Below are positions 14,802 to 34,350 of a stretch of 39,881 nt of DNA, piece by piece. The notes beneath the pieces were generated by a model. That model had not been told where the DNA came from. It saw nothing but the letters and a program-made list of their open reading frames with translations, and ran no database searches. Source of the DNA: Bacteriovoracaceae bacterium (GTDB taxonomy: Bacteria; Bdellovibrionota; Bacteriovoracia; Bacteriovoracales; Bacteriovoracaceae). Within the stretch, counting starts at the first letter, position 1; each line of letters opens with the position of its first letter. The stretch spans positions 1 to 39,881 of the forward strand of contig JAGLPP010000077.1 in NCBI GenBank assembly GCA_023137315.1. The letters are read 5' to 3'. Position numbers and translations under genes: made by a program.

Positions 14802-16181
14802 TTATTTTTTTGAAAATCTTGCTTGAAAGAATCTTAGATATTCCGGCTCATATTCAAATTTTAGTCCCGTGATCTTGTCACGATTTTTATATACTTCAAC
14901 AATTGCTTCTGTCGTAACGTCCATGTGCGCCTGTGTATAAACCCTTCGTGGAAGAGTAAGTCTTACGAGTTCAAGAGGTGGTCTTCTGTTTTTTCCGGTT
15001 TCAGGATCTCTTCCGGCAGATACGTTACCACGCTCCATTGCTCTGATTCCTGATTCCAAATATAATTCGGCGGCAAGAGTTTGAGCAGGAAAATCATCCT
15101 GGTCCAGGTGTGGAAGAAATGCTTTTGCATCTAAAAAGATTGCGTGTCCTCCGCATGGAACAACAATTGGAATACCTTCTGCGAGTAAGTTCTGGCCAAG
15201 ATATTTAGTCTGGCCGATTCTTGCCTTTTGATGCTCATCCATTACGCTTTCTTTGATCCCCTGGGCAAGTGCTTCCATGTCACGTCCGGCCATACCACCA
15301 TATGTGTGGAGTCCCTCAAAAATAACACACATGTTCTGTGCTTTTTTGTAAAGCTCTTCATCATTACAGGCAAAAAAGCCACCAATATTGACCAAGGAAT
15401 CTTTTTTGGCGGACATTGTACAGCCATCAGTGTACGAACAAATTTCATACAGAATCTCTTTGACTGATTTGTTCTCGTATCCTTTTTCTTTTTCCTTGAT
15501 AAAATATGCATTTTCCGCGCAACGGGTGGCATCCAACATAATTGCAATATCATGTTTGTCACAAACCTTGCGCAACTCCTTGATATTTTCCATGGAGAAT
15601 GGTTGTCCTCCGCACATATTTACACATCCCTCATAGGAAATGTAAGGAACCTTGTCGGCACCAACCTTGTTAATCAGTTTTTCCAGCTTCGAGATATTAA
15701 CGTTTCCCTTCCAGGGAAATTCGCTTGAAGGGTCATGTGCTTCATCAACAATTACATCGACAAAGTTTCCACCTGCCTTTTCCTGGTGCAATCTTGTTGT
15801 TGTAAAATACATATTTCCTGGAATATAGTCGCCTTCCTTGATCATAAGCTGTGACAATATGTGTTCTGCTCCGCGACCCTGGTGTGTGGGAACCAGATAT
15901 TTATAACTATAGTATTCCTGAATGGTCTTTTCCAGGCTGTAGAAGTTTTTACTGCCGGCGTATGCTTCATCTCCAAGCATCATTGAAGACCATTGCACGT
16001 CACTCATGGCAGATGTTCCACTGTCAGTTAAAAGATCGATATAAACATCATCACTTTTTAGTAGAAAGGTGTTGAACCCAGCCTCTTTTATGGCCTTTTC
16101 TCTTTCTTCTCTGGTGGTGGTTTTTAATAATTCCACAACTTTGATTTTAAAAGGTTCTGCCCAGGATCTTTTTTTTCTCAT
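14802..16181 (-). CDS. tpl: Tyrosine phenol-lyase-type beta-eliminating lyase (TPL/tryptophanase family)
   Basis: A PLP enzyme that splits an aromatic amino acid to pyruvate, ammonia and a phenol or indole. The family blocks IDLLTDSGTSAMSD, GDEAYAGS, PTHQGRGAE and the PLP-lysine motif SAKKD (Lys259/260) are intact. Two residues favour tyrosine over tryptophan. Arg384 in AMERG matches Arg381 of Citrobacter TPL, which contacts the phenol hydroxyl; E. coli tryptophanase has a hydrophobic residue there. Phe451 in RFFQARF matches Phe448, which is His in tryptophanase. TTTRLHQE also matches TPL. I place the start at ATG 16181, six bases after GGAG, not at the upstream TTG. The length is 459. It is often annotated as tryptophanase. 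Confidence 0.9.
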   Translation of the reverse strand: MRKKRSWAEPFKIKVVELLKTTTREEREKAIKEAGFNTFLLKSDDVYIDLLTDSGTSAMSDVQWSSMMLGDEAYAGSKNFYSLEKTIQEYYSYKYLVPTHQGRGAEHILSQLMIKEGDYIPGNMYFTTTRLHQEKAGGNFVDVIVDEAHDPSSEFPWKGNVNISKLEKLINKVGADKVPYISYEGCVNMCGGQPFSMENIKELRKVCDKHDIAIMLDATRCAENAYFIKEKEKGYENKSVKEILYEICSYTDGCTMSAKKDSLVNIGGFFACNDEELYKKAQNMCVIFEGLHTYGGMAGRDMEALAQGIKESVMDEHQKARIGQTKYLGQNLLAEGIPIVVPCGGHAIFLDAKAFLPHLDQDDFPAQTLAAELYLESGIRAMERGNVSAGRDPETGKNRRPPLELVRLTLPRRVYTQAHMDVTTEAIVEVYKNRDKITGLKFEYEPEYLRFFQARFSKK

Positions 16182-16229
16182 GATATACTCCAAAGTATTG
16201 TATGGATAAAATGTACTATTGCTATGAGA

Positions 16230-17358: not shown

Positions 17359-17982
17359 TCAAGTGGGTGGCAATTTGATTGAATTTATTTCTTTCGATAG
17401 CTCTTCTCTGGAATAAAATCCTGGTTTTCCGCATACAATAAATATTTTGCTGAAAGGAAGTGGGAGACGCGGTTTGTTCCATGCCTTTTTAAACATGAAG
17501 TACTTTTCAGGAAAGGCCCGAAGGGGATATATTTGTCGTTGTGACTTTTCTGAGAGTTTTATTACTCCCTCCTTTGCTTCGAATATTGGACCACGCGGTC
17601 CGTCAACTGCAATGGCAAAACTTGCTCCACGTTTCAATTTTTTGAGTGCTTCGATGAAGACTGCAATGCTTCTTCTGGAAGAAGAACCTGATATAACCTT
17701 GTATCCAAAAATTCGAAGAGCAGTTGCCAGAATCCTTCCATCTTTTGAGAGTGATACCATAATCATAATTTTCTTGAATGCGAAGTATGGAATTGCGGCG
17801 AGATCATCCTGATGCCAAAAAGCAATGAGTATCCCACTTCCAGGGAGATCCCCCTTTTTTTTCATGTCATTTATAATGTCTGGATGAAGGAAAACCCTGT
17901 AGCGAAAAGTAAACGAATACACCATGTAAATGATTGCGGCCATAAAACCAATAATGTGTTCTTTTGTGATTTTAAACATCAT
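17359..17982 (-). CDS. DUF374-type lysophospholipid acyltransferase
   Basis: A member of the PlsC/LPLAT superfamily, probably acylating a lipid intermediate such as a lipid A precursor or lysophospholipid. The family pattern is complete. It has FWHQDD (His57), SLSKDGRILA, then the phosphate-binding ISGSSSRRS and VDGPRGPIFEAKEGVIKLS. An N-terminal hydrophobic segment (residues 9-26) anchors it. The length of 207 is usual. Its ATG overlaps the valS stop (ATGA), so it is translated with valS; a second ATG at 17979 is equally possible. Substrate unknown. Confidence 0.85.
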   Translation of the reverse strand: MMFKITKEHIIGFMAAIIYMVYSFTFRYRVFLHPDIINDMKKKGDLPGSGILIAFWHQDDLAAIPYFAFKKIMIMVSLSKDGRILATALRIFGYKVISGSSSRRSIAVFIEALKKLKRGASFAIAVDGPRGPIFEAKEGVIKLSEKSQRQIYPLRAFPEKYFMFKKAWNKPRLPLPFSKIFIVCGKPGFYSREELSKEINSIKLPPT

Positions 17983-20651
17983 TTAAAGCTTTTTACATTT
18001 TCCTCGAGTGAAATAATTTTTTGTTTTAGATCGGACACTTTTTTCTTTACGCCTTCAATAACATCTTTTGGTGCATTTTCTGCAAATTTTTTGTTTTTAA
18101 GTTTTTTGTCATTTTGATTAAATTCTTTTTTTGTTTTCTCCAGATTTTTTTCAAGACGTTTAATATGTTCGTTAATATCAACGACTCCCTCAAGTGGCAT
18201 GAATATTTCGGTATTGGTTGTTGCGGACATTATTGATTTTGGAGGACGGACTCCGTTTTTGTTCGCAGTAACAATGGTTTTGACTCTTGCCAGTTCGTGG
18301 AAATAAACCTTGTTTTTTTCAAAATATTTAAGAAGTTCCTTGTCACCAGAGAAGAGTTCTATTGAAATTTCATCCTTGGGTTTTATATTGAGGGCAGATC
18401 GCATGTTTCTTATAAGTGTGATTGTTTCGATAAAGTGATTCATGTCACTTTGATCCTTGTCAAAAACAAGTTTTTCGTCAAATTCAGGATATTCCTGTGC
18501 GATTAACAGGTCTTCACCGTCATTTTTCAGATATTGCCAAAATTCCTCGGTAACGAAAGGGGATATGGGGTGAAGGAGCGCGACTATTTCCCTGAAACAA
18601 TATTTTAATACACTTGTTCTTTGTATTTTGCTTTTTTCGTTATCACCGTAAAGAACATTCTTGGAAAGTTCAATAAACCACGAACAATATTTATCGTAGA
18701 CAAATTGATAGATGGCATTACATGCATCATCAAAACGAAATTCCTCAATTGATTCATTCATTTTCAGAGTGACGCTGTTTAGTTCACCAAGAATCCATTT
18801 TTCATGATTATCCAGTGTTTGAATATCAGGTAGTTTGGATTTTGTGTTGGAAATAAACGGATGTATGAACCTGAAAGCATTCCATATCTTGTTCATAAAG
18901 TTTCTATATCCACTGATTCTTTCGGGATCAAGATTAAGCCCGCGGTTATATCCGGAACCTGCGGCAAGAGCGAAACGAAAAGCATCGGAGCCATATTTGT
19001 CAATCATATCGATTGGATCAATTCCGTTTCCAAGTGATTTACTCATCTTGCGACCAAGTTTGTCCCTGACTATGGCGTGTATGTAAATTTTTTCAAATGG
19101 AATTTCACCAAGTACCTTCAAGGTCATCATCATCATTCTTGCCACCCAGAAAAAGATGATGTCGTAGCCTGTTACCAGCGTGGAGGTTGGGAAAAAATCA
19201 TTGAAGCTCTTTTCTTTCATTCTTTTCTTGTCCGGCCATCCAAGGGTTGAAAATGCCCAAAGTCCGGAACTAAACCATGTATCCAAAACATCGGGATCCT
19301 GGCTGAAGTGTTTGCTGTCACATTTCGTACAGCATTCGGGTTTATGTTCAGCGGCCCACTTGTTTTCACATTGCTTGCAATAATAGACAGGTATTTGGTG
19401 TCCCCACCAAAGTTGTCTGGAAATACACCAGTTTCGTGGTTCTCTCAGCCATGAAAAATATGTGTTTTCCCACCCCTTTGGATAAAATCGTGTTTTGTTA
19501 TCTTCAATGGCCTTGACCGCGGTTGATGCCATTTCTTGAACGTTCAGGAACCATTGTTTTGAAACAATCGGTTCGATGGGGACATGAGAGCGTTGCCCGT
19601 GACCTACCTGATGGATGTGATCGTGTTGCTTGATGAATAATCCAAGTTCCTTTAATTTTTCAACAATCAATTTCCTGGCCTTTTTGCAACTCATTGACTT
19701 CCATTCAAGTCCGTATTCATTCAGTGTGCCATCAGAATTGAGAATATTTATAGTTTCAAGCTTGTGGCGCTTTCCTATTTCAAAGTCGTTGAAGTCGTGT
19801 CCAGGTGTGACTTTCAGACAACCTGTACCAAGTTCCATATCAACATGTTCGTCACCGATTATTGGAATCTCACGATTACAAAGTGGTACGATGGCCGTTT
19901 TTCCAATAAGATGTTTAAAACGGTCATCGTTTGGATTGACGGCCACAGCAGTATCGCCGAGCATTGTTTCCGGTCTTGTCGTGGCGATTTCAAGTTTTGT
20001 GTCATGGTCCTTTACGGAATAGAGAACATGGTAAAATGCCCCCTTGACTTCCTTATGTTCGACTTCAGCATCAGAAATTGCAGATTGAAGCAACGGGTCC
20101 CAGTTGACAATATAGTTTGATTGATAAATCAGTCCCTCATTATATAAATCGCAAAAAACCTTGTTAACTGCTTCATGTGGGCCCTGGTCCATTGTAAAAA
20201 CAAAATAATCCCAGTCACAGCTAACACCAATGTGACGTGCCTGTTTTGTGATAAAATCACCATATTCATCTTTCCATTTCCAGATACGTTCTAAAAATTC
20301 TTCACGTGTCATGTCTTTACGACTTTTTCCCTCATCCTCTAGTATTTTTTTTTCCACGACGGACTGGGTGGCAATACCGGCGTGATCCATGCTTGGAAGA
20401 TACAGGGTTTTAAATCCTTTCATTCTTTTAAAACGGATGATGGTATCCTGCGTGGTCATATCAAGGGCATGTCCTGCATGTAGTTTTCCAGTTACATTCG
20501 GTGGAGGCATGATTATGCAGTAGGATTTTTTTTGTTTTCCCATTTTGGGAGCGAAGTATTTGTTATCTTCCCAATGGTTATACCACTTGGATTCAAATTG
20601 TTTTGGATCAAGTGTTTTGGAGAGTTCGTTGTTTTCTGTCTCAAATTTCAT
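17979..20651 (-). CDS. valS: Valyl-tRNA synthetase
   Basis: Class I synthetase that charges tRNA-Val and edits threonine. PPPNVTGKLHAGHAL holds the HIGH-equivalent at residues 58-61, and KMSKS is at 535-539. The editing (CP1) domain contains ATTRPETMLGDTAVAVNP. A cysteine-rich knuckle (CKQC...CCTKC) is a likely zinc site. The tRNA-binding C-terminus ends in a Lys/Glu coiled coil (about 825-890). The length of 890 is normal. Its ATG overlaps the end of hisS by 11 bases. Confidence 0.98.
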   Translation of the reverse strand: MKFETENNELSKTLDPKQFESKWYNHWEDNKYFAPKMGKQKKSYCIIMPPPNVTGKLHAGHALDMTTQDTIIRFKRMKGFKTLYLPSMDHAGIATQSVVEKKILEDEGKSRKDMTREEFLERIWKWKDEYGDFITKQARHIGVSCDWDYFVFTMDQGPHEAVNKVFCDLYNEGLIYQSNYIVNWDPLLQSAISDAEVEHKEVKGAFYHVLYSVKDHDTKLEIATTRPETMLGDTAVAVNPNDDRFKHLIGKTAIVPLCNREIPIIGDEHVDMELGTGCLKVTPGHDFNDFEIGKRHKLETINILNSDGTLNEYGLEWKSMSCKKARKLIVEKLKELGLFIKQHDHIHQVGHGQRSHVPIEPIVSKQWFLNVQEMASTAVKAIEDNKTRFYPKGWENTYFSWLREPRNWCISRQLWWGHQIPVYYCKQCENKWAAEHKPECCTKCDSKHFSQDPDVLDTWFSSGLWAFSTLGWPDKKRMKEKSFNDFFPTSTLVTGYDIIFFWVARMMMMTLKVLGEIPFEKIYIHAIVRDKLGRKMSKSLGNGIDPIDMIDKYGSDAFRFALAAGSGYNRGLNLDPERISGYRNFMNKIWNAFRFIHPFISNTKSKLPDIQTLDNHEKWILGELNSVTLKMNESIEEFRFDDACNAIYQFVYDKYCSWFIELSKNVLYGDNEKSKIQRTSVLKYCFREIVALLHPISPFVTEEFWQYLKNDGEDLLIAQEYPEFDEKLVFDKDQSDMNHFIETITLIRNMRSALNIKPKDEISIELFSGDKELLKYFEKNKVYFHELARVKTIVTANKNGVRPPKSIMSATTNTEIFMPLEGVVDINEHIKRLEKNLEKTKKEFNQNDKKLKNKKFAENAPKDVIEGVKKKVSDLKQKIISLEENVKSFK

Positions 20652-21954
20652 GTATTACCTTCACAATTTCATCAATTTCATCGATGCAGATGTCATATTG
20701 TTTTTTTGTTTTCATATTTTTGATTTGTACACGATTGGTGGACAACTCCTTGCTGCCGATCATTCCGACAAAACCGGCACCTTTCTTTTCGGCAAGTGGA
20801 AATATTTTTTTTAATTTTAGAGACTCAAGATGAGTGATAACACGCATGTTTTTTCTTCTTAATTCTGTTGCGAGATTCATGCATACGGACACGGCATTTT
20901 CATCCTGAAAGGTTAGAAGAAGGTCATTGCATGGTTTGGTGAAGTCCGGTAAAAGCTGATGGGTTTTGAGAAAATCGGTAAGAGTGACATCACCAAGACC
21001 GAATCCAACACCGGGTACGGATGGTTCATTGAAGATTGTTAGAAGATCAGCGTAGGAACCACCTCCGCAGATTGCCCTTCTGTTCTCCGGATGTTTGTCG
21101 AAAATTTCAAAGACAATGCCCGTATAATAATCGAGCCCTCTGACAATGGTTGGGTCATAGTGTAAAAAATTTTTCAAGTTTGAGTTGTTTACCAAATTTA
21201 GAAAATCGTACAGGTCTTTTACGCAATCCGCCTGTCCTTCATCTTCAAAAAAGGAAAGAACATCCTCAAAACTTGAGAAGGCCAGATATTTGTGTAGTTT
21301 TTCCTTTGCCTCCTCGGAGATTCCTGTAGCATCAATCATTTCCTTCAGGTCTTTTGGACTTACTTTTTTGCTTTTATCAACAATTTTGTAAAGCTTGTGG
21401 ACTTTTTTATCATCAAGGCCCATTATTTTTTTGAAGATGGTTTCCACAATGGTGCGATCATTAATTAAAATTTCAAACATTTTGTTTGTGGCACCAAGCT
21501 CTTCCATCAGGGCAACAGCAATTTGAAGTATTTCAAATTCACCTTGTCTTTTAGGTGCCCCGAAAATATCAACATTGAACTGCCAATGTTCCCGGAGTCT
21601 GCCTTTTTGTGGCTTTTCATACCTCATAAGGTTTGGAATGGAATAGAAACGAATTGGTTTTGGGGTTTCACGGTGAATCTGTGCTATCATGCGTGCAAGT
21701 GTCGGGGTCATTTCCGGTCTGATGGCAACAAAACGATCACCCCTGTCGGTAAAGGAATAAATTTGTTCATTAATGAGTTCTTCTCCGGATTTTGCCTTGT
21801 ATAGCTCAACCTCTTCCAAGAGCGGGCCATCATAAGGTTCATATCCGAATAATTCGGCTGTCTTGCTCATGTGTGAGAAAATATATTTTCTTAATCTTTC
21901 CTGAACAGGGAAAAAATCTCTTGTACCCTTATATGGTCTTTTACTAAGCGACAT
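20641..21954 (-). CDS. hisS: Histidyl-tRNA synthetase
   Basis: Class II synthetase that charges tRNA-His. Motif 2 is RYEKPQKGRLREHWQFN. The histidine-specific loops are VRGLDYYTGIVFEIF and CGGGSYADLL. A C-terminal anticodon-binding domain follows. The length of 437 is normal. TAGGAT lies upstream of the ATG, 47 bases after the exported-protein gene. No convincing promoter was found in that gap, so hisS and valS may be read through from the three upstream genes or from a weak local promoter. Confidence 0.98.
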   Translation of the reverse strand: MSLSKRPYKGTRDFFPVQERLRKYIFSHMSKTAELFGYEPYDGPLLEEVELYKAKSGEELINEQIYSFTDRGDRFVAIRPEMTPTLARMIAQIHRETPKPIRFYSIPNLMRYEKPQKGRLREHWQFNVDIFGAPKRQGEFEILQIAVALMEELGATNKMFEILINDRTIVETIFKKIMGLDDKKVHKLYKIVDKSKKVSPKDLKEMIDATGISEEAKEKLHKYLAFSSFEDVLSFFEDEGQADCVKDLYDFLNLVNNSNLKNFLHYDPTIVRGLDYYTGIVFEIFDKHPENRRAICGGGSYADLLTIFNEPSVPGVGFGLGDVTLTDFLKTHQLLPDFTKPCNDLLLTFQDENAVSVCMNLATELRRKNMRVITHLESLKLKKIFPLAEKKGAGFVGMIGSKELSTNRVQIKNMKTKKQYDICIDEIDEIVKVIHEI

Positions 21955-22001
21955 TGTTCTTAATCCTATTTAAGTGTTAATAAGTCATCCTATATCATGC
22001 G

Positions 22002-22955
22002 TTATTCGATATCAATATTCCAGTCGTTGACAGGTACAGGCAGCGTTTTTGGATAAATATACGATGGGTCGGGGGTTGGGATAATATCAGGAATTGGAGC
22101 TCTTTCTTTCGGTTCATCCTTTGGTGTCCATTTAAGTAAATTGTTTTTGGACCTGGTTTCTCTGACATCCAGCTTTTCCAGATCGAGAATAGTATATATT
22201 TTTTTGATGGTATCCTCTTCTGTTTGGCCCTTTGTTTTGTGCACGGCAAAAAAGTAAAATTGCCCAGGTCTTTTTTCAGAGACTTTCTTATTTCTTAATT
22301 GCGAAAATGCAGAACAATATATTTTCAAACGATTCAGTGTTTCAAACATGATTGGAAATAACAGGTCTTCAAGCTCATCCGGTTCTTTGGAAACAAAGAT
22401 ATGTGCCCAGGGCAGTATCAGCTTAAATCGGCTTTTAAGCTGTAAAAAATTTTTATTAAAATTTATTTTTCCATCCTTCAGGTATTTTAGAATGTTTTTA
22501 TAAAGTTTGTGATTAATAAGTTCATGTAAATCACTTTTTAGGATTTCGGCCATCCAGAGTGAGTATGGAGTAAGCTTTTCCCTGTTGTTTTGAATGTATT
22601 TATCAAGTTTTTCCAGAATAATCTTTTCGTAATGGCTTTTTCTTAAATTCAGTTGTGGTTTTTTCTTCATTAATAATTTATAAATTTCAGTTTTAAAAAG
22701 AAACATAAGTTCCAATCTGTCCATATTTCTTGAACAATTATCAAGAATAATGATTGATTTCTCAAAGTCGGCATATTGATTTTTATCAAGCACATTCTTT
22801 TGCATTGAGGTGACGAGATATTGGAACTCAAGTGGGTAGTACGATTTGGGCGTGTATATAATGTCTGCCCCAAACGTCGAATTCATTAAAATATAAAAAA
22901 TAATAATGTTAGCCACAATCGTTAAATACTGTTTTTTCGTGTATTTCCTGCTCAA
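22002..22955 (-). CDS. Exported protein of unknown function (third gene of exported trio)
   Basis: 317 residues with a basic start (MSRKYTKKQ), a hydrophobic stretch and a likely cleavage site after STFGA, hence a periplasmic or surface protein. The body is rich in Lys, Leu and Ile and mostly helical by eye. The tail is Pro-rich with two similar PIPDIIPTPDP / PKTLPVPVND segments. I do not recognise a family. It overlaps the upstream gene by four bases (ATGA) and ends 47 bases before hisS, so it is translated together with its upstream partner. Confidence 0.75.
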   Translation of the reverse strand: MSRKYTKKQYLTIVANIIIFYILMNSTFGADIIYTPKSYYPLEFQYLVTSMQKNVLDKNQYADFEKSIIILDNCSRNMDRLELMFLFKTEIYKLLMKKKPQLNLRKSHYEKIILEKLDKYIQNNREKLTPYSLWMAEILKSDLHELINHKLYKNILKYLKDGKINFNKNFLQLKSRFKLILPWAHIFVSKEPDELEDLLFPIMFETLNRLKIYCSAFSQLRNKKVSEKRPGQFYFFAVHKTKGQTEEDTIKKIYTILDLEKLDVRETRSKNNLLKWTPKDEPKERAPIPDIIPTPDPSYIYPKTLPVPVNDWNIDIE

Positions 22956-24022
22956 AATGTACTGCCTGGAATTTTATCATTTTCCATATTATTTTTTCCA
23001 ATTACCAGATAATATTTTCCTCTGAACGGACAAATTAATCTGCCATCAATATTGATTACCTGTGATGCATATTTAAGATCCGTTAATATTGAAATTTTAC
23101 CTGATACGGGTTCAATCGATACAATTTCATTATTTATTTTTCCAGAGGATGTTTTCAGGGATTTTACAAAATATAGATTGTTGTCTGCCATTGAGCAGAT
23201 GATATTTCCGATATCGTTCAGGTCGGAATGATATATTTTGCGGGAATTTTTCATAGTGATATTTGTGATTTTATCAATGACCTGTATGGTGCTGCTTTGG
23301 TTCCTCTTCCCAATGCCAAAATGACCAACGTATAATTTATTATTGTCCAGACAAAGTTCAATCTTTGCCATATGAGTTTTTCCCTTGAGGATTAGATCAA
23401 ATTTTTTGTTATTTATGGAAAAGCGCATAATCCCAGGCAGGCCCTTTTCGTCCAAATCCGTATATATAACGGTTTTATTATCAGGCATGACAACACTTGG
23501 AACAAAATAATGATTTATTTTGTTTGCAAGGGATATTTCGAATTGCAGTTCCTTATGGCCCAGATTCTGAAAATGTATTTTTCTGTTGTAAGGGTTGAAA
23601 TATGAAATCCAGGAATCATTCAGATGCAGGGTTGGGTTTGTTCCCATGCCAAGTAATTCAGCTTCATTTTTTCCAAATTCGACCTGGTAAAGTTTATTAA
23701 GTTGTCTGATATTGTAATAATAATGATAGTCCCCGGAAACGGAGATGATGATTTTTTTTCGCCACTTTGATCCATAAACCTTGTATTGTGTTAATTTTTG
23801 TCCCTTGAGAACACTACGGATATTGTAATTTGAAGAGAGAATCAAGTCACCTGAAGATCGTTGGTAATAAGTATATTTTCCGTCGGAGGAAATAAAGCGA
23901 ATGTTATGAATATCCTGTTTTGTAGCCAGTATTGGTAACTTGCTTTTGGCAAAGGTAAATTTGGAAAGTAACAGGCAGATTAATAATATTAAAAAACGAA
24001 TTATATTATTTTCTGATTCCAT
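22952..24022 (-). CDS. Exported beta-propeller-like (TolB/DPP-IV-like) protein
   Basis: 356 residues with a signal peptide ending FTFAKS. The mature part is built of repeated blade-like segments such as SSDGKYTYYQRSSGDLILSS and MPDNKTVIYTDLDEKGLPGI. They follow the pattern of TolB or dipeptidyl-peptidase-type propellers. No catalytic serine-protease motif is visible, so it is more likely a binding scaffold. Its start overlaps the preceding gene by 17 bases and its end overlaps the next by four. The propeller call is from repeat pattern only. Confidence 0.7.
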   Translation of the reverse strand: MESENNIIRFLILLICLLLSKFTFAKSKLPILATKQDIHNIRFISSDGKYTYYQRSSGDLILSSNYNIRSVLKGQKLTQYKVYGSKWRKKIIISVSGDYHYYYNIRQLNKLYQVEFGKNEAELLGMGTNPTLHLNDSWISYFNPYNRKIHFQNLGHKELQFEISLANKINHYFVPSVVMPDNKTVIYTDLDEKGLPGIMRFSINNKKFDLILKGKTHMAKIELCLDNNKLYVGHFGIGKRNQSSTIQVIDKITNITMKNSRKIYHSDLNDIGNIICSMADNNLYFVKSLKTSSGKINNEIVSIEPVSGKISILTDLKYASQVINIDGRLICPFRGKYYLVIGKNNMENDKIPGSTF

Positions 24023-25958
24023 ATAGCATCCATGTATTGAGTGGGTGAATCCTCTGAAAACCGGTTATTGCAGCAAAAATTTTATTCCACATGATTAATC
24101 TTGGTGTATGCACGTCATCCATTGGTGTTCGAACGGATAGTAGTAATTCATTTGTGTTATCGAAAACCCCGTCGATAATAAAGGGGGTTGGAGAACAGTC
24201 ACTGAGAGTATGTGAACGAAAAAATCGTGGCAAAAGATTCTCGGCGCATCCCACCCCGTGAATAATTGCGTTTGGATTATTTTTCAGGAAATTTGTCAGT
24301 ATGGTCAAATTTGGTATCCGATTGCTTTTTAGTGCGAATTTTTGACGGATAATATGATCCATCGAATTTTTTTCATGCATATACGAATTGGGAAAATACT
24401 CGAAACGTAACTTTCCCTCGTATTTAATTCCGGTAATTATTTTTCCACGGAAATAGATATTTTTTGGACAGTTAAAACCGGTACATTTCATTTTGTCCAC
24501 GACGATAAAGCATCCGTTTTTATATTGAAGAAGGAATGGATTATATTGTGTTTTGTCTATGATTTTACAATCTTCCTTGTAACTGGAACCTTTTATTCGA
24601 TTCAGGATTTTTGCCATTACTTTTTGCTCTGCCAGACTACTGGATGGATGCTGGCCCGGGATGTATGATTCGCACTTGTTTTTGTTGTCAACCGGATTTA
24701 TGTAGCATATTTTTAAAGGCCAGATGAGATTGTTGGTGGCACTGATGACAACGTTGGCAAAATCCTCCATGGTTTCATAAACACATGCTGAAGGATTGGT
24801 TGATTTTTTATCATCGCTGAAATGTTCCAGTATCCTGTTAATATTTACAATATTTTCATAATCAATTCTTCCAGGACAGTCTTGATATGAAGTTTTTAGA
24901 CGTGAAACAGAAAGGGCCTTCTCCATGGTCTTACAATCCGGCTTTGGGAAAAACGATGGATATTGTGTAATACCGAGTGTCGTACATCTGTTAATATCGT
25001 CATTCATGAGTTTGATACATTGACGTAATTTGTTTGTGTCAAGCTTGTTGTTCCTCAGTAACAATTTACATCTGTGTTGCATATAATAAAGGGGCTTTTC
25101 TCCACGTACAATTTCCTCCCAGAAACCGGGACTTAAATATGTGTTACAGAATTTATCAGGTGATTCAATATGTCTGCACAGATTTTCCATATATGTTTGT
25201 TGGAACAATGGAATTTGTTTTTCATAACGTCTTCCTGACGAAGTTATCGCTCTTTGCAGCGCACTGAGGGTTGTTTGATAATTCCTGTTCCTCTTTATTT
25301 TTTCACGAATTTTTCGACTCAGGGAAATGCTTTCAGGGAATTTACAGATATATGGCAAATAAAGGTGGGTTTTCCATTCATCGAAAATTTTCTGACATTC
25401 ATTGCGATTTTTTGGAATTTTAAATTTTATTGAATTTATTGTTTTGAGATAGTTTGTTGAATTAAAAATTGTTGAGACTGATTTATTTTTAAAACATCTG
25501 GTCTTGTAAATGTGCTCCAGAAGAATCTTTTTGGAGACAAGTACTGTTTTTTTTATCTTATTTTTCGTAATAATATCGATTAATACATCATTTATAAGAC
25601 CATTGGTCGTCTTAAGAAGATTGTTTTCCATTAGTGCATAAAAATTGCACAGACCATTATTTCCGGAAATCATGTTAATGTATTTTGAATCGGAGTTAAA
25701 AAGGATGGTTTTTATAAACGGAGTGGATATTGCAATTTCCTTTATTTCTTTCAGATCATTCCGTTTAATTCGGTATGCATTAGCTGATTTCATGGCCTTG
25801 GTGAAGTGTTCCCTGTTGATGTGGACAAAGTTATTTATTGATTCAAGTATACCGGGAGGGCCATCTTCAGGAGTTTTTTTGGTGTTCGCCAGGATGTTGT
25901 TTCCTGTAACGCAACTGATGAAAATCAAAAATTTCAGTGTCAAAAGGAACTTTGACAT
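24006..25958 (-). CDS. Large cysteine-rich exported protein of unknown function
   Basis: 650 residues with an N-terminal hydrophobic signal. It could be cut after NNILA by signal peptidase I, or be a lipoprotein at Cys16 (FISC, an imperfect lipobox). About 20 further cysteines are spread along the chain, often in short motifs such as CTGFNCPK, suggesting several disulfides in the periplasm or at the surface. I recognise no family. It is the first gene of the minus-strand run that continues through two more exported proteins into hisS-valS, so its promoter should lie in 25959-26049, where I see no strong one. Confidence 0.75.
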   Translation of the reverse strand: MSKFLLTLKFLIFISCVTGNNILANTKKTPEDGPPGILESINNFVHINREHFTKAMKSANAYRIKRNDLKEIKEIAISTPFIKTILFNSDSKYINMISGNNGLCNFYALMENNLLKTTNGLINDVLIDIITKNKIKKTVLVSKKILLEHIYKTRCFKNKSVSTIFNSTNYLKTINSIKFKIPKNRNECQKIFDEWKTHLYLPYICKFPESISLSRKIREKIKRNRNYQTTLSALQRAITSSGRRYEKQIPLFQQTYMENLCRHIESPDKFCNTYLSPGFWEEIVRGEKPLYYMQHRCKLLLRNNKLDTNKLRQCIKLMNDDINRCTTLGITQYPSFFPKPDCKTMEKALSVSRLKTSYQDCPGRIDYENIVNINRILEHFSDDKKSTNPSACVYETMEDFANVVISATNNLIWPLKICYINPVDNKNKCESYIPGQHPSSSLAEQKVMAKILNRIKGSSYKEDCKIIDKTQYNPFLLQYKNGCFIVVDKMKCTGFNCPKNIYFRGKIITGIKYEGKLRFEYFPNSYMHEKNSMDHIIRQKFALKSNRIPNLTILTNFLKNNPNAIIHGVGCAENLLPRFFRSHTLSDCSPTPFIIDGVFDNTNELLLSVRTPMDDVHTPRLIMWNKIFAAITGFQRIHPLNTWMLYGIRK

Positions 25959-26049
25959 AAAATTACACTCATTGGTTAAATTTACTCCATTATTACGTTA
26001 GTATATACCCTGGTATTTTGATAGGATAGGGGAATTCTGGGAAGTTGTT

Positions 26050-26712
26050 GTGGATATAATATTTGGGATATTTTCGCTTGTTCTATTAATTGTTTTCGTG
26101 TGTTACTACGAATGGGGTACTGCGAAAAAACATAAGGCGATTTTGTTGCCTGAATTCAGGATATACTGGATATGTTTTTTATTGATTGTTCTTATGGGAA
26201 TTGCTGGAAATTTAGCCTCCCATGGTTTGTCGGCCCTTGATTTGGTGACAAGGATGGGAATATTTGAAGCTTCCCTGTTTGGAATCTCGGGATTTTTACT
26301 TATTAACATATTGTTAAAACTTGGAAATCATGTTTCAGAATTTTCGGAAAATATATTGAAGGTTCAAAAAAGGATTTTAATAAAGATACCAATTTTAGGT
26401 GGGGTGACATTTTATACATTGGCCAGTTTTGTTGGTTTTGAATGGGTGCTTGCAGGACATATTTTATTAAATGTGGTTTTTGTTGCAGGCCTTATCAAAA
26501 TATTTAAGATAAAAGTTTTTTCAATTGGAAATGGGATCTATTTGCTATTGATCATTTTTAGTGATCTTGCAAGAATATTTATTGGAGCATCCGAAGAACT
26601 ATTGGTTCCGATTGCCAATTTGCTTCTTGTGGTGTCACTGGTTTTTGGTCTTAAAATGGTGAATAAAACTGGATTTTACGATGACAAAAAAAATCACGCT
26701 GTTGGCTATTAG
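26050..26712 (+). CDS. Seven-helix integral membrane protein, function unknown
   Basis: 220 residues with about seven membrane segments (roughly 3-22, 36-56, 69-91, 115-132, 133-151, 157-178 and 183-203) and no soluble domain. The start is GTG at 26050 with GGGAAG (26039-26044) five bases upstream. Its 3' end overlaps the following lipoprotein gene by 32 bases in another frame, so the two are probably co-translated. No family recognised. Confidence 0.75.
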   Translation: MDIIFGIFSLVLLIVFVCYYEWGTAKKHKAILLPEFRIYWICFLLIVLMGIAGNLASHGLSALDLVTRMGIFEASLFGISGFLLINILLKLGNHVSEFSENILKVQKRILIKIPILGGVTFYTLASFVGFEWVLAGHILLNVVFVAGLIKIFKIKVFSIGNGIYLLLIIFSDLARIFIGASEELLVPIANLLLVVSLVFGLKMVNKTGFYDDKKNHAVGY

Positions 26713-27700
26713 TTTTTTATTGATTACTTCATGTTCCCACATGGGTACCCTGAACAGAAAAAAGCATGTTTATGGGAAACAGCCTAAAAAAATAATCTGG
26801 ATACAGATAGCAGGATTGGATGAAGAGCATGTTGCGATGCTTAGATTTAATTATCCGGATGAAAATACAAGAACATCCTTTGAAGAAAGTACCTGTATTG
26901 GAAAAATATGGAACTATAATTTATATAATTTAAGACCGGCACCTTATCAGGGATTTATTTCCCAGATTGTTGGAAGGGAAAATATAAAGAATAGTTGCGC
27001 GGACTATGGTCACAGACCGATATGGAGCTATTTACATGAGTTGGGATACGATACCGGGATTTTTGAGTCAGTAAGTGCACCATGCGAATCACTTGATCGT
27101 GCATGGAATTGTGGAAAAGAAGGGAAAATATTTTACGAGAATATTTATTTTTGGAAAATGGGCAGAGCTTCCATGGAAGAAAAATTATTTCACTTTCAGG
27201 ATAAACATCCCTTCGTGGAAAAGGGAATTTATTATGATAAAACATGCCAGAGTGGTACATGCTTTGCCAGTATTTCCAGTAATGTAGGGTCAATATTCAA
27301 GCGATTTTCCGTCGGGAAAACCAGATATTTATTTATCATAAGGGATTTTTCATATTTTAATGCCCTGAAAAATAAAAAAATCGGAGAGGCAAGATCAATT
27401 CTGGGTGAGTTGGATAAAATGATTGCCATATTTCAGGAAAAAACCAAACAGCATGATGATATTCTGATTCTGGTGACATCATCCGGTACGAAAAACTTTG
27501 AATTTCCGGAAAAAGGAAGAGAGTGGGCCGAGTTTGAAAGCAAGGGTGAGCATGTTCTATACAGAAAAAGTTCACTTCTTTCTCCTGTTTTTTCCACCGG
27601 GGCCGGATCAGAAAATTTTTGTGGTTTTTATAAGGAAGTAGAGATCTTTAAAAGATTATTATTCATTGAAAAAAGAAAGAGGATTATTGATTGGTTCTAG
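26681..27700 (+). CDS. Lipoprotein with degenerate alkaline-phosphatase/sulfatase-superfamily-like fold
   Basis: 339 residues; lipobox ITSC with Cys18, so lipid-anchored. The layout recalls the alkaline phosphatase superfamily. It runs KKIIWIQIAGLDEE (where an Asp-Gly metal site would be), APYQGFISQIVGREN (nucleophile loop and GR), SYLHELGYDTGIF, and ELDKMIAIFQEKTKQHDDILILVTSSG (where Ser-Asp-His-Gly would be). The metal-binding Asp/His and the nucleophile Thr/Ser appear to be missing, so I expect no hydrolase activity. It overlaps the upstream membrane-protein gene by 32 bases and, tail to tail, the minus-strand Hsp33-like gene by 42. The family call is tentative; the lipoprotein call is firm. 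Confidence 0.72.
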   Translation: MTKKITLLAISFLLITSCSHMGTLNRKKHVYGKQPKKIIWIQIAGLDEEHVAMLRFNYPDENTRTSFEESTCIGKIWNYNLYNLRPAPYQGFISQIVGRENIKNSCADYGHRPIWSYLHELGYDTGIFESVSAPCESLDRAWNCGKEGKIFYENIYFWKMGRASMEEKLFHFQDKHPFVEKGIYYDKTCQSGTCFASISSNVGSIFKRFSVGKTRYLFIIRDFSYFNALKNKKIGEARSILGELDKMIAIFQEKTKQHDDILILVTSSGTKNFEFPEKGREWAEFESKGEHVLYRKSSLLSPVFSTGAGSENFCGFYKEVEIFKRLLFIEKRKRIIDWF

Positions 27701-28517: not shown

Positions 28518-30998
28518 GTGCTGAGTATAATATTATTTGATAGAATACATGATTTGTACAAATTTGAGTGGATTAAGAACGAAGAAACCACAACCACTGT
28601 TATATGTCCAAATCCCCGTGCGGCAGATGATTTTAGAAATCGTATTCTGGGTGTGAACACCGCTGTGTCGGCGATTAATGATACAAAAAATTTTACAGTT
28701 ATCACTATTTCCAAATTTGTTGCAGACGAGTTGAAAAAAGGTTTTGGAAATCAGCTGGATTCCCTGCGGAAAAATAAATCTGATTTGATGATTTATCTTG
28801 GAACGGTTTGGAAAAAATATTTTCCAGAACTTTCCTTTGAGGTTTTTGACCAGGTATTCAATCTGTTTACAACATTTAGAAGTTATACATTGGAATTTTC
28901 ACTAATAGAGGAGATTCTGAAGGAATATGATAAAACTGTTGCGGATGGGATTTGTATCTTCTGGCAAGTATTGGACAGTCTTGCGATTGTCGATGAACAC
29001 AAGAGTTATTCAATTTTATCTGAAGCCTATAGGATTAACGATCATCAGGTTTATCGTGACAAGTATTTTTCCGGTGAAGGATTTAATAATATTGTTTTTT
29101 GGGGTTTTACGCAATTGACTGCAATCCAGGTTGATTTTCTCAAGGCATTGGGGATCAGACATAATGTATTTATTCCATTTCAGGAATCAGTATACAGGGA
29201 AAGCATGAATTCGGACTGGATAAACTGGTTGGATGCTGTTGAGGTGAATGTTGCAGGTAAAAAGGAAGTTGAAAAGGTTCTGGATATGACGGTGTTCCCA
29301 GCGGGACGTATGAACGAGTATATTGATAGAACTGTAGATTTTTCGCTTACATCCACCATAGTGGATGTGTATCTTGCAGAGAGATGTCCGTCTGTGGAGC
29401 AGATTAATGAGTTTCCGCTGGACGGACTTTTTTTTAAAGCAAAAAATAATTTTTTTCATGGTCAGTTGAACATGATTATGGAATTTTTTTCTGAAAAATA
29501 TTATTTCTCAGGGGAATCGGTTGTCGAAACAGAGCAACTTTACAGTGATCTGGATAAAATAATAAAGGATGAACTTGAAAAAAAGGATTATCGAAAAATT
29601 AAAATTTGTCTTTTGTTCAAGCAGACAATTGATAAATGGGAGAATATTTCGGATGAAAACAGGATGGTGGATTATTTTTGTCTAAAACTCCTGGCAAATG
29701 TTTGTGAGCTTGATCTTCCGAGAGTATTTTCCTCGCCTCTTTTGCAGAAAAAACCCGGGGGGAGAATCAGCGGTATTGAGGAGTTGGAAAGATTTGATCA
29801 AAACGCGCTGAATATTGTTTGTGTGACGAGCAGATATTCCACACTAAAAAGTACAGTTGAAAAGCATGAACCCAAAGTAATGGAATTTTTAAAGTCGATT
29901 GGGCCTTTGCATAGAAGTGAGTTTGAATTTCTGATATTGAAAAACAGGCTGACGGATATTTTGCAAAGTGATGGGGCGATTCTTTTTATTGAGAATGGCC
30001 TTGTTGACTTTGATGTCGGATGGAATCAGGTGATTGGAGATTTTGAGCGAGTGAACATTTCGGAAATTTCTTCCGTGGAAAAAACAAAGGCCGTGGATTT
30101 ACTGGCAGAAGATCCTGTGGTTGATGGAAATACGGTAAAAAGGATATCTGCATCAAGATTGCAGGCGTATATGGATTGTCCAAGGAAATATTATTTTAGT
30201 TATGTGGATTCGCTTGGAGGAAAAATCTCTCTCCATAATTCCCTGATGCCTGATCAGCTTGGCATACTGGAACACTTGACTGTTGAGGATTATATCAAGG
30301 AATATGATTTATTGGACAGGCGTTCAGTCAGGAAAATTGCACAAAAAAATCTTGAAAGGTATCTGGGTGACAATGGAATAATTCTGGATAACTACCGCAA
30401 GGAATCATATCTTCGGGAAATAGTGGATTATTCATCGAATGGTATTTTGCCGTTGTTGCAGATAAAGGCCGCAGATGGGAATACTGAATTGAAGTTTGAG
30501 AAGGAATTTTCAGATAAAAAAAACAGTGACATGTTTTTTGGAAGACTGGACTGTCTGATTGAGAATACGAATATGATGGGCATTGTCGATTTTAAGCGGT
30601 CTGCCGCAAGTATCCCCAGAGTGGGGGATTTGATGAATATGGAGAAGATTCAACTTTGGTTTTATCTGAATCATAATTCGCAATACCTGGACAGGATATC
30701 CTTTTACGGTTTTTGTTGTCTTTCCGATGTCGAAAAATCAGTTATTTTTTGCAGCAGTGAGAGCGTATACAATCGATTGAAGGAGATAAAATTTATGGGA
30801 GAAAAGAGAATTATAAAAAGAATTCTTGAACCAAAAGAATTTATTGCCGGATATTCGCTGCATGAAGAGAAAATTGTTGAGAGGATGAAAAAAGAAAATA
30901 ATTATGATCCAATTCCCGCGACATCGGATGTGTGTAAATACTGCCAGGTAAAAAACCTCTGCTCAAGGTCAGTGATACAGGACGAAAAAGATGTCTGA
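28518..30998 (+). CDS. addB: AddB-like subunit of the AddAB helicase-nuclease
   Basis: Non-motor partner of AddA in double-strand-break end resection for RecA loading. The N-terminal two thirds resembles an inactivated helicase: it starts with VICPNPRAADDFR-type sequence and has no Walker A. The C-terminal PD-(D/E)XK nuclease has GRLDCLI, GIVDFKRS and QLWFYL. Cys554 (in DCPRKYYF) with Cys806, Cys809 and Cys815 (C-x2-C-x5-C) forms the iron-staple pattern typical of AddB and Cas4. The length of 826 is shorter than Bacillus AddB (about 1166). The start is GTG 28518 with no clear ribosome site. It overlaps addA by eight bases. Confidence 0.85.
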   Translation: MLSIILFDRIHDLYKFEWIKNEETTTTVICPNPRAADDFRNRILGVNTAVSAINDTKNFTVITISKFVADELKKGFGNQLDSLRKNKSDLMIYLGTVWKKYFPELSFEVFDQVFNLFTTFRSYTLEFSLIEEILKEYDKTVADGICIFWQVLDSLAIVDEHKSYSILSEAYRINDHQVYRDKYFSGEGFNNIVFWGFTQLTAIQVDFLKALGIRHNVFIPFQESVYRESMNSDWINWLDAVEVNVAGKKEVEKVLDMTVFPAGRMNEYIDRTVDFSLTSTIVDVYLAERCPSVEQINEFPLDGLFFKAKNNFFHGQLNMIMEFFSEKYYFSGESVVETEQLYSDLDKIIKDELEKKDYRKIKICLLFKQTIDKWENISDENRMVDYFCLKLLANVCELDLPRVFSSPLLQKKPGGRISGIEELERFDQNALNIVCVTSRYSTLKSTVEKHEPKVMEFLKSIGPLHRSEFEFLILKNRLTDILQSDGAILFIENGLVDFDVGWNQVIGDFERVNISEISSVEKTKAVDLLAEDPVVDGNTVKRISASRLQAYMDCPRKYYFSYVDSLGGKISLHNSLMPDQLGILEHLTVEDYIKEYDLLDRRSVRKIAQKNLERYLGDNGIILDNYRKESYLREIVDYSSNGILPLLQIKAADGNTELKFEKEFSDKKNSDMFFGRLDCLIENTNMMGIVDFKRSAASIPRVGDLMNMEKIQLWFYLNHNSQYLDRISFYGFCCLSDVEKSVIFCSSESVYNRLKEIKFMGEKRIIKRILEPKEFIAGYSLHEEKIVERMKKENNYDPIPATSDVCKYCQVKNLCSRSVIQDEKDV

Positions 30999-33900
30999 AC
31001 GAACTCCAAATCCTGAACAACTAAAGGCAATCAAGCACACGGGTGGAGTGATTTTGAGTGCAGGGGCCGGTTCAGGTAAAACATTCGTAATTATTGAGCA
31101 TCTGATACATCTTATTAATGAATTTGATAAAAAGATCAAATCATCAGGAGAGGATGAATACAGAAGAAGGATGACGGAGTATCTGACATCAATAGTGGTA
31201 ATGACTTTTACGAGAAAAGCGGCCGGTGAATTGAAAATAAGACTGCAAAACAGAATCTCCGGCATTAATGGTGCCAGGTGGGAAATTACAAAAGACATCG
31301 TTGACAAAATAACAGTGACCACCATTCACGGGTTTTGCCATAAGCTGCTTTCTTCGGGTTATATAACGGATTGTTCTGCGAAATTTGAAATTATCGGCGA
31401 TCTGGAACTTCGTGGGAAGATTGGAAAATTTTTCAAGCTATGGTGTCTTGGAAAAAAAGATGAACGCAATCCGGCGGTCCTGAATGTGTTGAATCATCAT
31501 GTCCAGGTGGGAAATGCGATAAATGATATTTTCCTGTCTTCTGAATTGCGGTTGATGTGGAGGGATATTGATCCACAAATGGAAAAAACGTGGGGCGTTG
31601 AAGATTATTTTGTGGAATTACTGTCTGCGCTTAATCTGTTGGATATTTTCAAGAATGGTTTTTCTCTCGAGGATTGCGGGGAATATTCAGCAAAGAAATG
31701 GTATCAATTTATTGAAAAATTCAACAAGACAAGGATGGAACTTCTTGATCTGAGACCCGAGACAATGCATCAATTGGCTGAATATTTTGCAACCAACAAG
31801 TATCGAATGCCGGCGGCCAAGGATGCTCCTGATTCGGCGAGGGAGTTTTTTAAAAGATTAAATATTTTAAAAAAATTTATAAAGGACAATCAGGAACATT
31901 ATTTGAATTATTCCAAAGGGCACGACGGAGCATTCAGAGAATGGCTTTGTGTTTTCAAGGAGATTTTTGATTTTGTTGATGATTTGTATGACAGCGAAAA
32001 TGGGAAAACATTTTCCGATCTGGAATTTTATGTATTAAACGGGTTGAAAAATAATGGAAATGATTGCGAGAGGATTGGAAAAAATTTCCGTTATTTTATT
32101 GTGGACGAATTTCAGGATACTTCAAATATTCAATGGGAAATTATTCAATTATTGATTGGAGAAAAATACGATCGTCTTTTCGCGGTGGGTGATATAAAGC
32201 AGGCAATATACGGATTTCGAGGCGGAGAGTTGGGTGTTTTCAAGAAATGTCTTTCGGAAATGTCGAATGATGGAAGGCTTACGTTGAGGAATAATTATCG
32301 TTCTTCAAAATCAGTTATAACATTTAATAACAAGCTGTTTGATTATGTATTTCCACTTGGAGAGGGATATACGGGATTTGATTATCAGACTGTTCCGGGA
32401 GAACCGCAGGAATATCCGGGATCATCGGGTGATGACAATAATGGGGAAGTTGTCAGTCTTGATTTTCAACTTATTCCTTCCAGTATTGAAAAAAACAAGT
32501 TGTCCGCAGATGAAATAAATTATTATGAGGCCTTGAGTATACGTGAGAAAATACGGGAAATTTCGACAAGGAGACCAGGGGAAAGTATTTGTATCTTATA
32601 TCGAAAAATGAATCCGGCACTTTTTCTTGTGTCACTTTTGCTGGATGATGGTGAATCATTTGTTTCGCAAATCAAGATACCAATGAATGAAGATCCCGTA
32701 TGGGGTATGTTTCAGGTGCTGCTTGAGTGTAGAGTTGGATTCAGGGAAGTTAAAAATCAAAAACAGGCAATCGACAAGTATGGAAATTTTATTCTGGGTA
32801 AATATCTTGAATCCATGAAAATTTCAACTTGTCTTCAGGATGCGATTGATCAGTTTCAAAATGATATTCTATTCATGGGCCTGTTTGAGTCTTTCAGGAA
32901 ATTTTTATTTGTTCTGGGGATTTCCAATTCAAATTATTCAAACAATATGAAAAATATACAATCAGTGTGTCAGATTTCAAAAGATGATCCTGAAGAAGCA
33001 TTGTATTTGATGAATGAAAAAATGGATCAAAAATATACAACGGAATTTCAAACAGGTAGTGGAGACAGGAATATACATATCATGTCATGTCACGCATCGA
33101 AGGGTCTGGAGTTTGATCATGTGATATTGGGTGGAATCCTTACAAACGGGGCAACTGCTGCCGATCGAAGTTTTATCGGAAAATATCCGGCAAGCATCAG
33201 GTGGAAATTGGATGAGAATTCCGAAAAACCGGCAAAATCACCAAACCTGATTCTTGAAAATATTGCTCGAAAGAAAAAGGAGTTTTCTGAATCCAAACGT
33301 CTGTTTTATGTGGCCTGTACCAGGGCAAAGAATTCTTTAAGCTGGGTGGACATATCCTTAAACAGTGAACCATCCATCTCGAATAAAAATAGCTGGATTC
33401 TTGCCGTGCGTAATTGGAGTGAGCTACAGCGACTGGATGGAGCAAATGATATTATCTCAAATATTTCCAGGCAGGAAAAATATGAATGTGATTCACAACT
33501 TTTGAACCGGATTTTAAACAACCCTCCATTTTTCCACAGGGATAAACTTGGAATGCAGAAGAAGGCCAAGGATGATTTTAACAGGAAGGATGAACTGGCA
33601 ATAATGTCAGAGCTATCCGTAACCAGGCTTGCCACAATCGCAGATTGTCCCAGGAAATTTTTTCTTTTGAATGTTTGCAAATTATCACAGGAGGATGTTA
33701 AGGCCGTAACAGGAAAAGGAGAGGATTTTTCATATGAGGTAAATATTGAAGATGAGACGATTGATGATATGGAGGAGGTTAATCAGAAAATTCGTTCGTC
33801 CAGTGAGCGTGGAACAAAAATTCACTATATGATTTCCGAGGTGATAAGGAATTCATGGAAAATACCTGATGCAATGGTTGCCAACAAGGAAGAAATACAG

Positions 33901-34350
33901 ATTTTGGATTGGATTAAAAGTAAATTGAAAATTTTTGACAGTTCACATGACTTTATTTCAGAAGAGGTTATCAAGTTTCCTCTTTTCGGATATATGTTGT
34001 CAGGTATTCCAGACTTGGTTCTCAAACCAAAAGAAACAGCAGGAGAATATATTATCTGGGATTTTAAAACCGGAAGTAGAAAAAAACATGAAAAATCATA
34101 TTGGTTTCAACTTTTCTCTTATGCCAGGGCAATGTTCGATCTTAATTCTTATCCGGAAGAAAATGTTGTTGAGCTGGTATTATGCTATCTTGATGAAAAA
34201 AAATTAATTACAAAAAAAGTCAACTACAAGGATATTGATGAATACCTTGCATCTGAATGGAAAAAGTTGGCACGGTTTGATCTTTTTAATTCGGAGCACT
34301 GCGCCATCTGTAACTATGGGAAGTTATGTTTGCTTTCTTGCACGCCTTAA
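30991..34350 (+). CDS. addA: AddA-like UvrD-family helicase-nuclease
   Basis: Motor and nuclease subunit for double-strand-break repair. The N-terminus has a Q-motif Gln10 and Walker A AGAGSGKT (24-31). It continues with TFTRKAAGELK, Walker B VDEFQDT (371-377), GDIKQAIYGFRGG and MSCHASKGLEFDHV. The RecB-type nuclease has His945, Asp1008, Asp1024-Phe-Lys1026 and QLFSYARAM. Unusually for AddA it also carries iron-staple cysteines: Cys886 (DCPRKFF) and Cys1104-x2-Cys1107-x5-Cys1113. The length is 1119. Its ATG lies inside the end of addB, so the two are co-translated and should form one complex. Confidence 0.93.
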   Translation: MSERTPNPEQLKAIKHTGGVILSAGAGSGKTFVIIEHLIHLINEFDKKIKSSGEDEYRRRMTEYLTSIVVMTFTRKAAGELKIRLQNRISGINGARWEITKDIVDKITVTTIHGFCHKLLSSGYITDCSAKFEIIGDLELRGKIGKFFKLWCLGKKDERNPAVLNVLNHHVQVGNAINDIFLSSELRLMWRDIDPQMEKTWGVEDYFVELLSALNLLDIFKNGFSLEDCGEYSAKKWYQFIEKFNKTRMELLDLRPETMHQLAEYFATNKYRMPAAKDAPDSAREFFKRLNILKKFIKDNQEHYLNYSKGHDGAFREWLCVFKEIFDFVDDLYDSENGKTFSDLEFYVLNGLKNNGNDCERIGKNFRYFIVDEFQDTSNIQWEIIQLLIGEKYDRLFAVGDIKQAIYGFRGGELGVFKKCLSEMSNDGRLTLRNNYRSSKSVITFNNKLFDYVFPLGEGYTGFDYQTVPGEPQEYPGSSGDDNNGEVVSLDFQLIPSSIEKNKLSADEINYYEALSIREKIREISTRRPGESICILYRKMNPALFLVSLLLDDGESFVSQIKIPMNEDPVWGMFQVLLECRVGFREVKNQKQAIDKYGNFILGKYLESMKISTCLQDAIDQFQNDILFMGLFESFRKFLFVLGISNSNYSNNMKNIQSVCQISKDDPEEALYLMNEKMDQKYTTEFQTGSGDRNIHIMSCHASKGLEFDHVILGGILTNGATAADRSFIGKYPASIRWKLDENSEKPAKSPNLILENIARKKKEFSESKRLFYVACTRAKNSLSWVDISLNSEPSISNKNSWILAVRNWSELQRLDGANDIISNISRQEKYECDSQLLNRILNNPPFFHRDKLGMQKKAKDDFNRKDELAIMSELSVTRLATIADCPRKFFLLNVCKLSQEDVKAVTGKGEDFSYEVNIEDETIDDMEEVNQKIRSSSERGTKIHYMISEVIRNSWKIPDAMVANKEEIQILDWIKSKLKIFDSSHDFISEEVIKFPLFGYMLSGIPDLVLKPKETAGEYIIWDFKTGSRKKHEKSYWFQLFSYARAMFDLNSYPEENVVELVLCYLDEKKLITKKVNYKDIDEYLASEWKKLARFDLFNSEHCAICNYGKLCLLSCTP

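Follow-up and report, generated by a model that had tools for sequence, protein, structure and literature searches.

The stretch analyzed here (the window) comprises positions 1 to 39,881 of the forward strand of contig JAGLPP010000077.1, from a Bacteriovoracaceae bacterium (assembly GCA_023137315.1), and it carries three overlapping genes, which we call A, B, and C, that form a unit specific to one family among those sampled. On balance, and by a modest margin of confidence, we favor the view that A-B-C is a coupled family-specific unit whose exported products work together beyond the cytoplasmic membrane, in a complex that binds and does not catalyze. What was computed toward this view is the co-conservation of the three genes, their order and overlaps, signal-like N termini in most of the products, one disulfide pair deduced from co-loss, the predicted folds, and, in A, the lack of a universal histidine and of a cysteine at the presumed catalytic position. 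The open reading frames (ORFs) confirm the layout reported in the initial annotation, with overlaps of 4 and 17 bases joining three genes that lie on the same strand, 47 bases before hisS. This arrangement is more than chance, for relatives repeat the order, the lengths, and the overlaps.

An initial set of 39 genomes gave matches to A in 24 and to B in 24, all from the family of the window. The distribution was examined further with profile searches of a phylum sample of 290 genomes, 97 from the same family and 193 from other families, which are numbered in the sample, not named, so that the share of Bdellovibrio among the 193 cannot be read from it. A was matched in 95 of the 97 same-family genomes and B in 93, with neither matched in any of the 193 others, while C was matched in 90 of the 97 and gave one marginal match (E 6e-4) among the others. 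The two genomes missing A are assemblies of an estimated 81% and 85% completeness, and two of the genomes missing C, G086 and G157 (genomes are given by G numbers and loci by L numbers), contain a divergent C in the expected place. Both A and B mostly give a single match per genome. A collection of 84,980 named species was scanned with two short conserved patterns, the sole search beyond the phylum and one that detects only sequences with those two patterns; 67 stretches matched and 43 of these encode a relative. The titles of the 43 read Halobacteriovorax, Bacteriovorax, Halobacteriovoraceae, or Bacteriovoracaceae, or carry looser labels (Bdellovibrionales, one Bdellovibrio sp., Bacteriovoracia, Oligoflexia, Proteobacteria, one Epsilonproteobacteria, and bacterium). 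In the NCBI taxonomy, the order Bacteriovoracales holds the Bacteriovoracaceae and the Halobacteriovoraceae. According to literature abstracts, the order includes predators of bacteria, among them Halobacteriovorax and Bacteriovorax.

Gene order was compared in a neighborhood set of 102 loci from 97 genomes, all chosen for having A (the 95 matched by profile plus G001 and G013). B comes after A, in the same orientation, at all 94 informative loci, and C after B at 90 of 94; in three of the four exceptions, G113 and G233 (genus g42) and G001, a same-strand unlabelled ORF occupies the position of C. The A/B overlap is 14 or 17 bases at 79 of 94 loci and the B/C overlap is 4, 8, or 11 bases at 72 of 90, counts that take, of the in-frame starts, the one closest to the expected position and therefore lean toward the expected overlap. 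The initial annotation had named separate promoters and a lack of conserved linkage in relatives as findings that would speak against it, and, as far as linkage is concerned, the result is in its favor. The linkage, the recurring overlaps, and the signal-like N termini described below likewise support its trio as a conserved unit of exported-type proteins, while the secreted or surface complex that it proposed, and the location, are what we infer.

The connection to translation genes, by contrast, did not hold up. The initial annotation had suggested that read-through would tie the trio to hisS and valS, yet hisS directly follows C on the same strand at only 52 of 89 loci. Elsewhere the next gene after C is an opposite-strand gene (27/89), valS without hisS (5/89), or another same-strand gene (5/89), and hisS lies ~45–50 kb away in the two g42 genomes searched. 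As the adjacency of hisS varies in this manner, A-B-C is independent of hisS-valS; no rule links it to translation genes, and the steadier neighbor is a gene upstream of A, termed X. Hence the reading in which the trio is tied to translation by co-expression with hisS-valS, which could draw on a 47-base gap without a terminator-like site in the window and on the same arrangement at those 52 loci, is hardly credible given the opposite-strand gene that comes next at 27 loci and the lack of hisS there in others. The apparent hisS-valS link should not be read as biology. In several genera (L056, L065, L071, and others), valS comes after C without hisS, directly in the 5 loci noted and after an opposite-strand gene in 5 more, and for this reason hisS has left the cluster, probably more than once. 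The valS of G020 (L057:1378-4017) is 26% identical to that of the window, compared with 52–69% for the other matched valS genes, which suggests that it is a replaced gene.

Gene X encodes an EtfD-like iron-sulfur (Fe-S) reductase with CCG and 4Fe-4S domains (relative 9ojn_A, E 3.4e-87), and it is found directly upstream of A, mostly overlapping it, at 86 of 91 informative loci. One of the remaining five loci has a split A (G131), and the other four, the window (G000), G017, G204, and G101, have no X at that place. In G000 (contig 52), G017, and G204, which group as a single clade in the trees of A and of B, X resides on another contig. The place of X in G101 is taken by an unrelated membrane protein, and no X was found within the stretch (the rest of G101 was not searched). 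Other sampled members of the genus of G101 keep X upstream of A. An equal length had raised the possibility that A and X are tandem paralogues, which was rejected (hhalign probability 0.9%). The constancy of X would be expected if the true unit were X-A-B-C, a membrane Fe-S reductase with an exported Cys-rich redox partner in which the cysteines of A serve as an electron-transfer or thiol-redox store. We consider this very unlikely: A-B-C is intact in the four genomes without X at the locus, the pace of change in X is slower than in A, with which X is less correlated than B and C are, and the task of EtfD, from electron transfer flavoprotein (ETF) to menaquinone, faces the cytoplasm. The excerpted text of PMC13083937 describes mycobacterial EtfD as connecting ETF with the menaquinone pool.

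The same neighborhood data bear on whether the three genes merely travel together. Operon inertia could hold three exported proteins in a functionally loose cluster that forms no physical complex, and the neighbors w24 (a divergent gene described below), X, hisS, and valS do likewise stay close in many genomes. However, the A-B and B-C adjacencies exceed that of C and hisS, the overlaps recur, and the unit survives rearranged surroundings, with X-A-B-C intact where hisS is not adjacent (G086, L149) and A-B-C intact where X has gone from the locus (G000, G017, G204, G101), so that we regard a loose cluster as unlikely. In 44 genomes, partial distance correlations after HisS and ValS were 0.61 for A-B, 0.54 for A-C, 0.39 for B-C, and 0.37 for A-X, and in the same number of genomes C was the fastest changing of the three proteins.

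The products of all three genes look exported. By a simple hydrophobicity rule, a hydrophobic 11-mer was present near the start of 75 of 88 A, 85 of 94 B, and 83 of 89 C sequences, compared with 1 of 66 HisS and 0 of 64 ValS, and a crude lipobox-like pattern was matched in only 2 of 88 A, 0 of 94 B, and 1 of 89 C sequences. Protein A was described initially as a cysteine-rich protein of 650 residues, and its 21 cysteines (3.23%) are indeed the highest share among the 30 window ORFs counted (runner-up, 3.03%). Conservation in A was counted over the 88 of 102 A ORFs of at least 550 residues, which were aligned. These have 20 near-invariant cysteines, 18 of them present in 88/88 sequences. The other two, C205 and C261, are both missing from the same six sequences (G113, G086, G233, G157, G242, and G047), and trees of A (with the two Cys columns masked), B, and X place five of the six losers in one clade and G047 apart. 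As the losers fall in two separate clades, the pair must have changed together at least twice, a pattern of co-loss that points to a C205–C261 disulfide. A VKOR family gene (a disulfide-forming oxidase family) was found in all six genomes searched for one, and DsbB in three of the six, with none found in G000, the genome of the window. Two VKOR-family genes are present in G000, on contigs 144 and 218.

The predicted structure of A (predicted local distance difference test score [pLDDT] 87.8, predicted template modeling score 0.72) combines a mixed alpha/beta part, which is the part matched by known structures, with a remainder that is mainly helical, and the N-terminal region, residues ~30–340, was barely covered by the comparison. 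In VIA, a second-look aligner, the model matched 2bu3 with a Z of 11.7 (root-mean-square deviation [rmsd] 3.7, 180 residues aligned), 8z4h with a Z of 11.6 (3.1, 145), 8oig with a Z of 10.8 (3.3, 153), and 3erv with a Z of 10.0 (5.5, 168). By title, the 50 listed matches are nearly all papain-type proteases or their relatives, and they cover approximately residues 343–650. Because this list is coherent, we accept the fold assignment, in which A residues ~343–650 are modeled as a papain-like fold. The catalytic cysteine of PeiR, C90 (named in the title of 8z4n, 'C90A'), lies 13 residues past the first aligned pair, 77:355, and would thus correspond to a position near A368, where the helix 368–380 begins. 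No cysteine occurs within residues 362–391 in any of the 88 A sequences, nor does A have a universal histidine column, the best being 567 (77/88) and 638 (75/88). H567 and D596 were considered as a catalytic dyad and rejected, as neither is universal (77/88 and 71/88). The nucleophile cysteine and a universal histidine are two defining features of such a peptidase; both were looked for and neither was found, and we therefore do not file A as a peptidase. With no cysteine near the presumed catalytic place and no universal histidine, the C-terminal domain of A is probably a dead peptidase, as judged from the model.

A different possibility is that A is an active non-canonical papain-fold hydrolase or transpeptidase whose substrates are peptidoglycan or peptides of the prey, that it works for example through C361 of a D-C-P motif, and that B and C are its accessory subunits. 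The motif is strongly conserved (D360 in 87, C361 in 88, and P362 in 86 of 88 sequences) and, like the invariant R375, sits beside the presumed active-site helix, and PeiR, a pseudomurein endoisopeptidase, is among the nearest folds. C361, however, is ~7 residues before the start of the helix that maps to PeiR C90, and the conserved cysteines come to an even number (20, or 18 without one pair), which leaves no odd free cysteine. In addition, the best histidine column reaches 77/88, with tyrosine instead in the close relatives G017 and G204. We judge an active enzyme to be quite unlikely. W413 and W624, like R375, are present in all 88 sequences.

The description of B as propeller-like is borne out by a confident beta-propeller model (pLDDT 90.8). 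The best VIA match is 5l8s, with a Z of 17.9 (rmsd 4.5, 283 aligned), and the matches listed are propeller proteins as far as their titles are recognizable. In the C protein of the window, the sequence PVPVNDW begins 12 residues before the end. Across the family, the pattern P-x-P-x-x-[NDE], with up to two further residues before a W, occurs one to three times in 45 of 89 C sequences, and its last occurrence mostly begins 7–13 residues from the C terminus. Such a tail could be a docking peptide. The idea that a PxPxNDW tail is a genome-wide sorting signal was not borne out: a DNA pattern for PxPx[ND]DW gave 14 matches in nine genomes, compared with 3 for a reversed-pattern control, and 11 of the 14 fall in gene C, the other three being in ORFs of 27 and 42 codons and inside one longer protein. 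A sorting signal common to many proteins is thus unlikely from the sequence pattern.

None of the three proteins had been recognized in the initial annotation, and this holds for searches of Pfam, NCBIfam, PHROGs, and PDB-sequence profiles. In Pfam, gene A alone gave a single match of 12.8 bits, far under the cut-off of 23.5 bits, and the B and C of the window gave none; 42 A members matched no family at E ≤ 0.01, and 42 B members matched two families, each in one member only. NCBIfam had no match for A, B, or C, and PHROGs had nothing better than E 0.02–0.03. Alignments were built from 24 relative loci, each plus the window (A1 uses 22, A2 23, and A3 21), and from the 43 named-species loci (A5 and A6 use 41 each, and A7 39); PDB-sequence profile searches with A1, A2, and A3 gave nothing better than E 0.1. 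A contig scan with the A of the window alone yielded 8 pattern matches with no relative among them. The genes were not found named in the literature excerpts consulted, PMC12827227 included, in searches made without their locus tags in annotated genomes, which does not prove them to be undescribed.

Several points weigh against a binding complex built around a dead papain-like protein. The papain-like assignment comes from a predicted model and VIA, as Foldseek searches of the PDB and BFVD returned no match for A at E ≤ 0.001, and VIA's own notes give best Z values of typically 7–8 for models without a clear Foldseek match and of 14 for mostly helical ones. The catalytic position was mapped by residue offset, not from a printed alignment. 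Signal peptides were judged by a crude hydrophobicity rule, which 13 of 88 A sequences fail. In G019, C is found not with A-B but next to hisS, on a different contig. The tail motif is missing from 44 of 89 C sequences and so cannot hold a complex together everywhere. Finally, A and B are strongly correlated with HisS (0.76 after X and ValS), which makes the rate evidence weak, and the ValS control has a low raw correlation with everything (0.33–0.37), probably as a result of replaced genes.

On the view of a binding complex, A, B, and C would touch one another, with the degenerate papain-like groove of A and the propeller of B as putative binding faces. C would be an adaptor, and its PxPx[ND]DW tail, where present, may dock on the groove of A or the propeller of B. 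The compartment would be the periplasm or the cell surface, and the ligand would belong to envelope biology, from either the bacterium's own envelope or its prey. In a bolder version, which is speculative and which we hold to be rather unlikely, the Bacteriovoracales line would have its own extracytoplasmic machine: a dead papain-like protein stapled by disulfides would join with a propeller to offer a binding surface for envelope or prey peptides, with the C tail docking in about half of the lineages; if true, the machine would be a lineage-defining part of the (predatory) envelope of these bacteria. A family-wide trio without an annotated domain is a strong candidate for one of the core envelope functions particular to the Bacteriovoracales. 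It makes a compact target: three genes are involved, evolution points to one disulfide pair, A has a groove predicted to be that of a dead protease, and the tail of C offers a short motif.

The features of the locus are collected in Table 1. No terminator-like sites were found in 20500–26800, and promoter-like sites numbered 25, against 23.6 expected.

Table 1. Genes, overlaps, and spacers of the A-B-C locus in the window
Feature	Position	Strand	Description	Basis
Gene A	24006-25958	minus	650 aa, ATG start; exported-type protein	ORF, orthologues, conserved Cys, model
Gene A parts			Mainly helical N-terminal part and C-terminal predicted papain-like fold (~residues 343-650), no recognizable catalytic triad	
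Gene B	22952-24022	minus	356 aa, ATG start; exported-type beta-propeller protein	ORF, orthologues, model pLDDT 90.8
Gene C	22002-22955	minus	317 aa, TTG start; fast-evolving exported-type protein, Pro-rich tail	ORF, orthologues, tail motif
A/B overlap	24006-24022	minus	17 bases	
B/C overlap	22952-22955	minus	4 bases	
Intergenic region, divergent	25959-26049		91 bases, between gene A and gene 26050-26712	
Gap C-hisS	21955-22001	minus	47 bases	
hisS	20641-21954	minus	Neighbor, not counted in unit	Pfam
valS	17979-20651	minus	Neighbor after hisS, not counted in unit	Pfam

Across the divergent intergenic region, w23 (26050–26712, plus strand) has no family match above cut-off. It is followed by w24 (26681–27700, plus strand), which has no Pfam match and lies divergently near the unit at 20 of 24 relative loci; of the 82 copies of at least 280 residues that were collected, 35 have a lipobox-like N terminus. 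w24 may share the control region of the A-B-C unit. Farther out, a gene at 14802–16193 on the minus strand encodes a tyrosine phenol-lyase (NCBIfam TIGR02618, above cut-off) beside a weakly heptosyltransferase-like gene, and 28518–34350 on the plus strand encodes a PD-(D/E)XK nuclease protein and, after it, a UvrD helicase that also has a PD-(D/E)XK domain, a pair that we take to be AddB/AddA-like.

Comparison with known systems places A closest to the papain-like proteins, including the phytochelatin synthase Alr0975 (2bu3), PeiR (8z4h), staphopain C (8oig), and a C39-like peptidase (3erv), which its C-terminal ~300 residues resemble in modeled fold. In contrast to these proteins, with which it has no detected sequence similarity, A contains a long Cys-rich N-terminal part, and it lacks both a cysteine at the presumed catalytic place and a universal histidine. 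The C39-like domain (CLD) of HlyB-type exporters, which is cytoplasmic, offers a parallel, as it keeps a papain-type fold without the nucleophile, as A is predicted to do. In the excerpted text of PMC8277102, an ABC exporter has the HlyB CLD as its N-terminal domain, with tyrosine in place of the catalytic cysteine. A differs from the CLD in being exported-type and Cys-rich and in having no transporter part. The iron-sulfur-binding reductase 9ojn (EtfD type) is a relative of X, the usual upstream neighbor, and X is absent from the window locus. The modeled propeller of B is similar in fold to the propeller domains of S9 peptidases (5l8s, 8wt1), but B, at 356 residues in all, has no room for a hydrolase domain, and identity in the listed matches is 7–15%.

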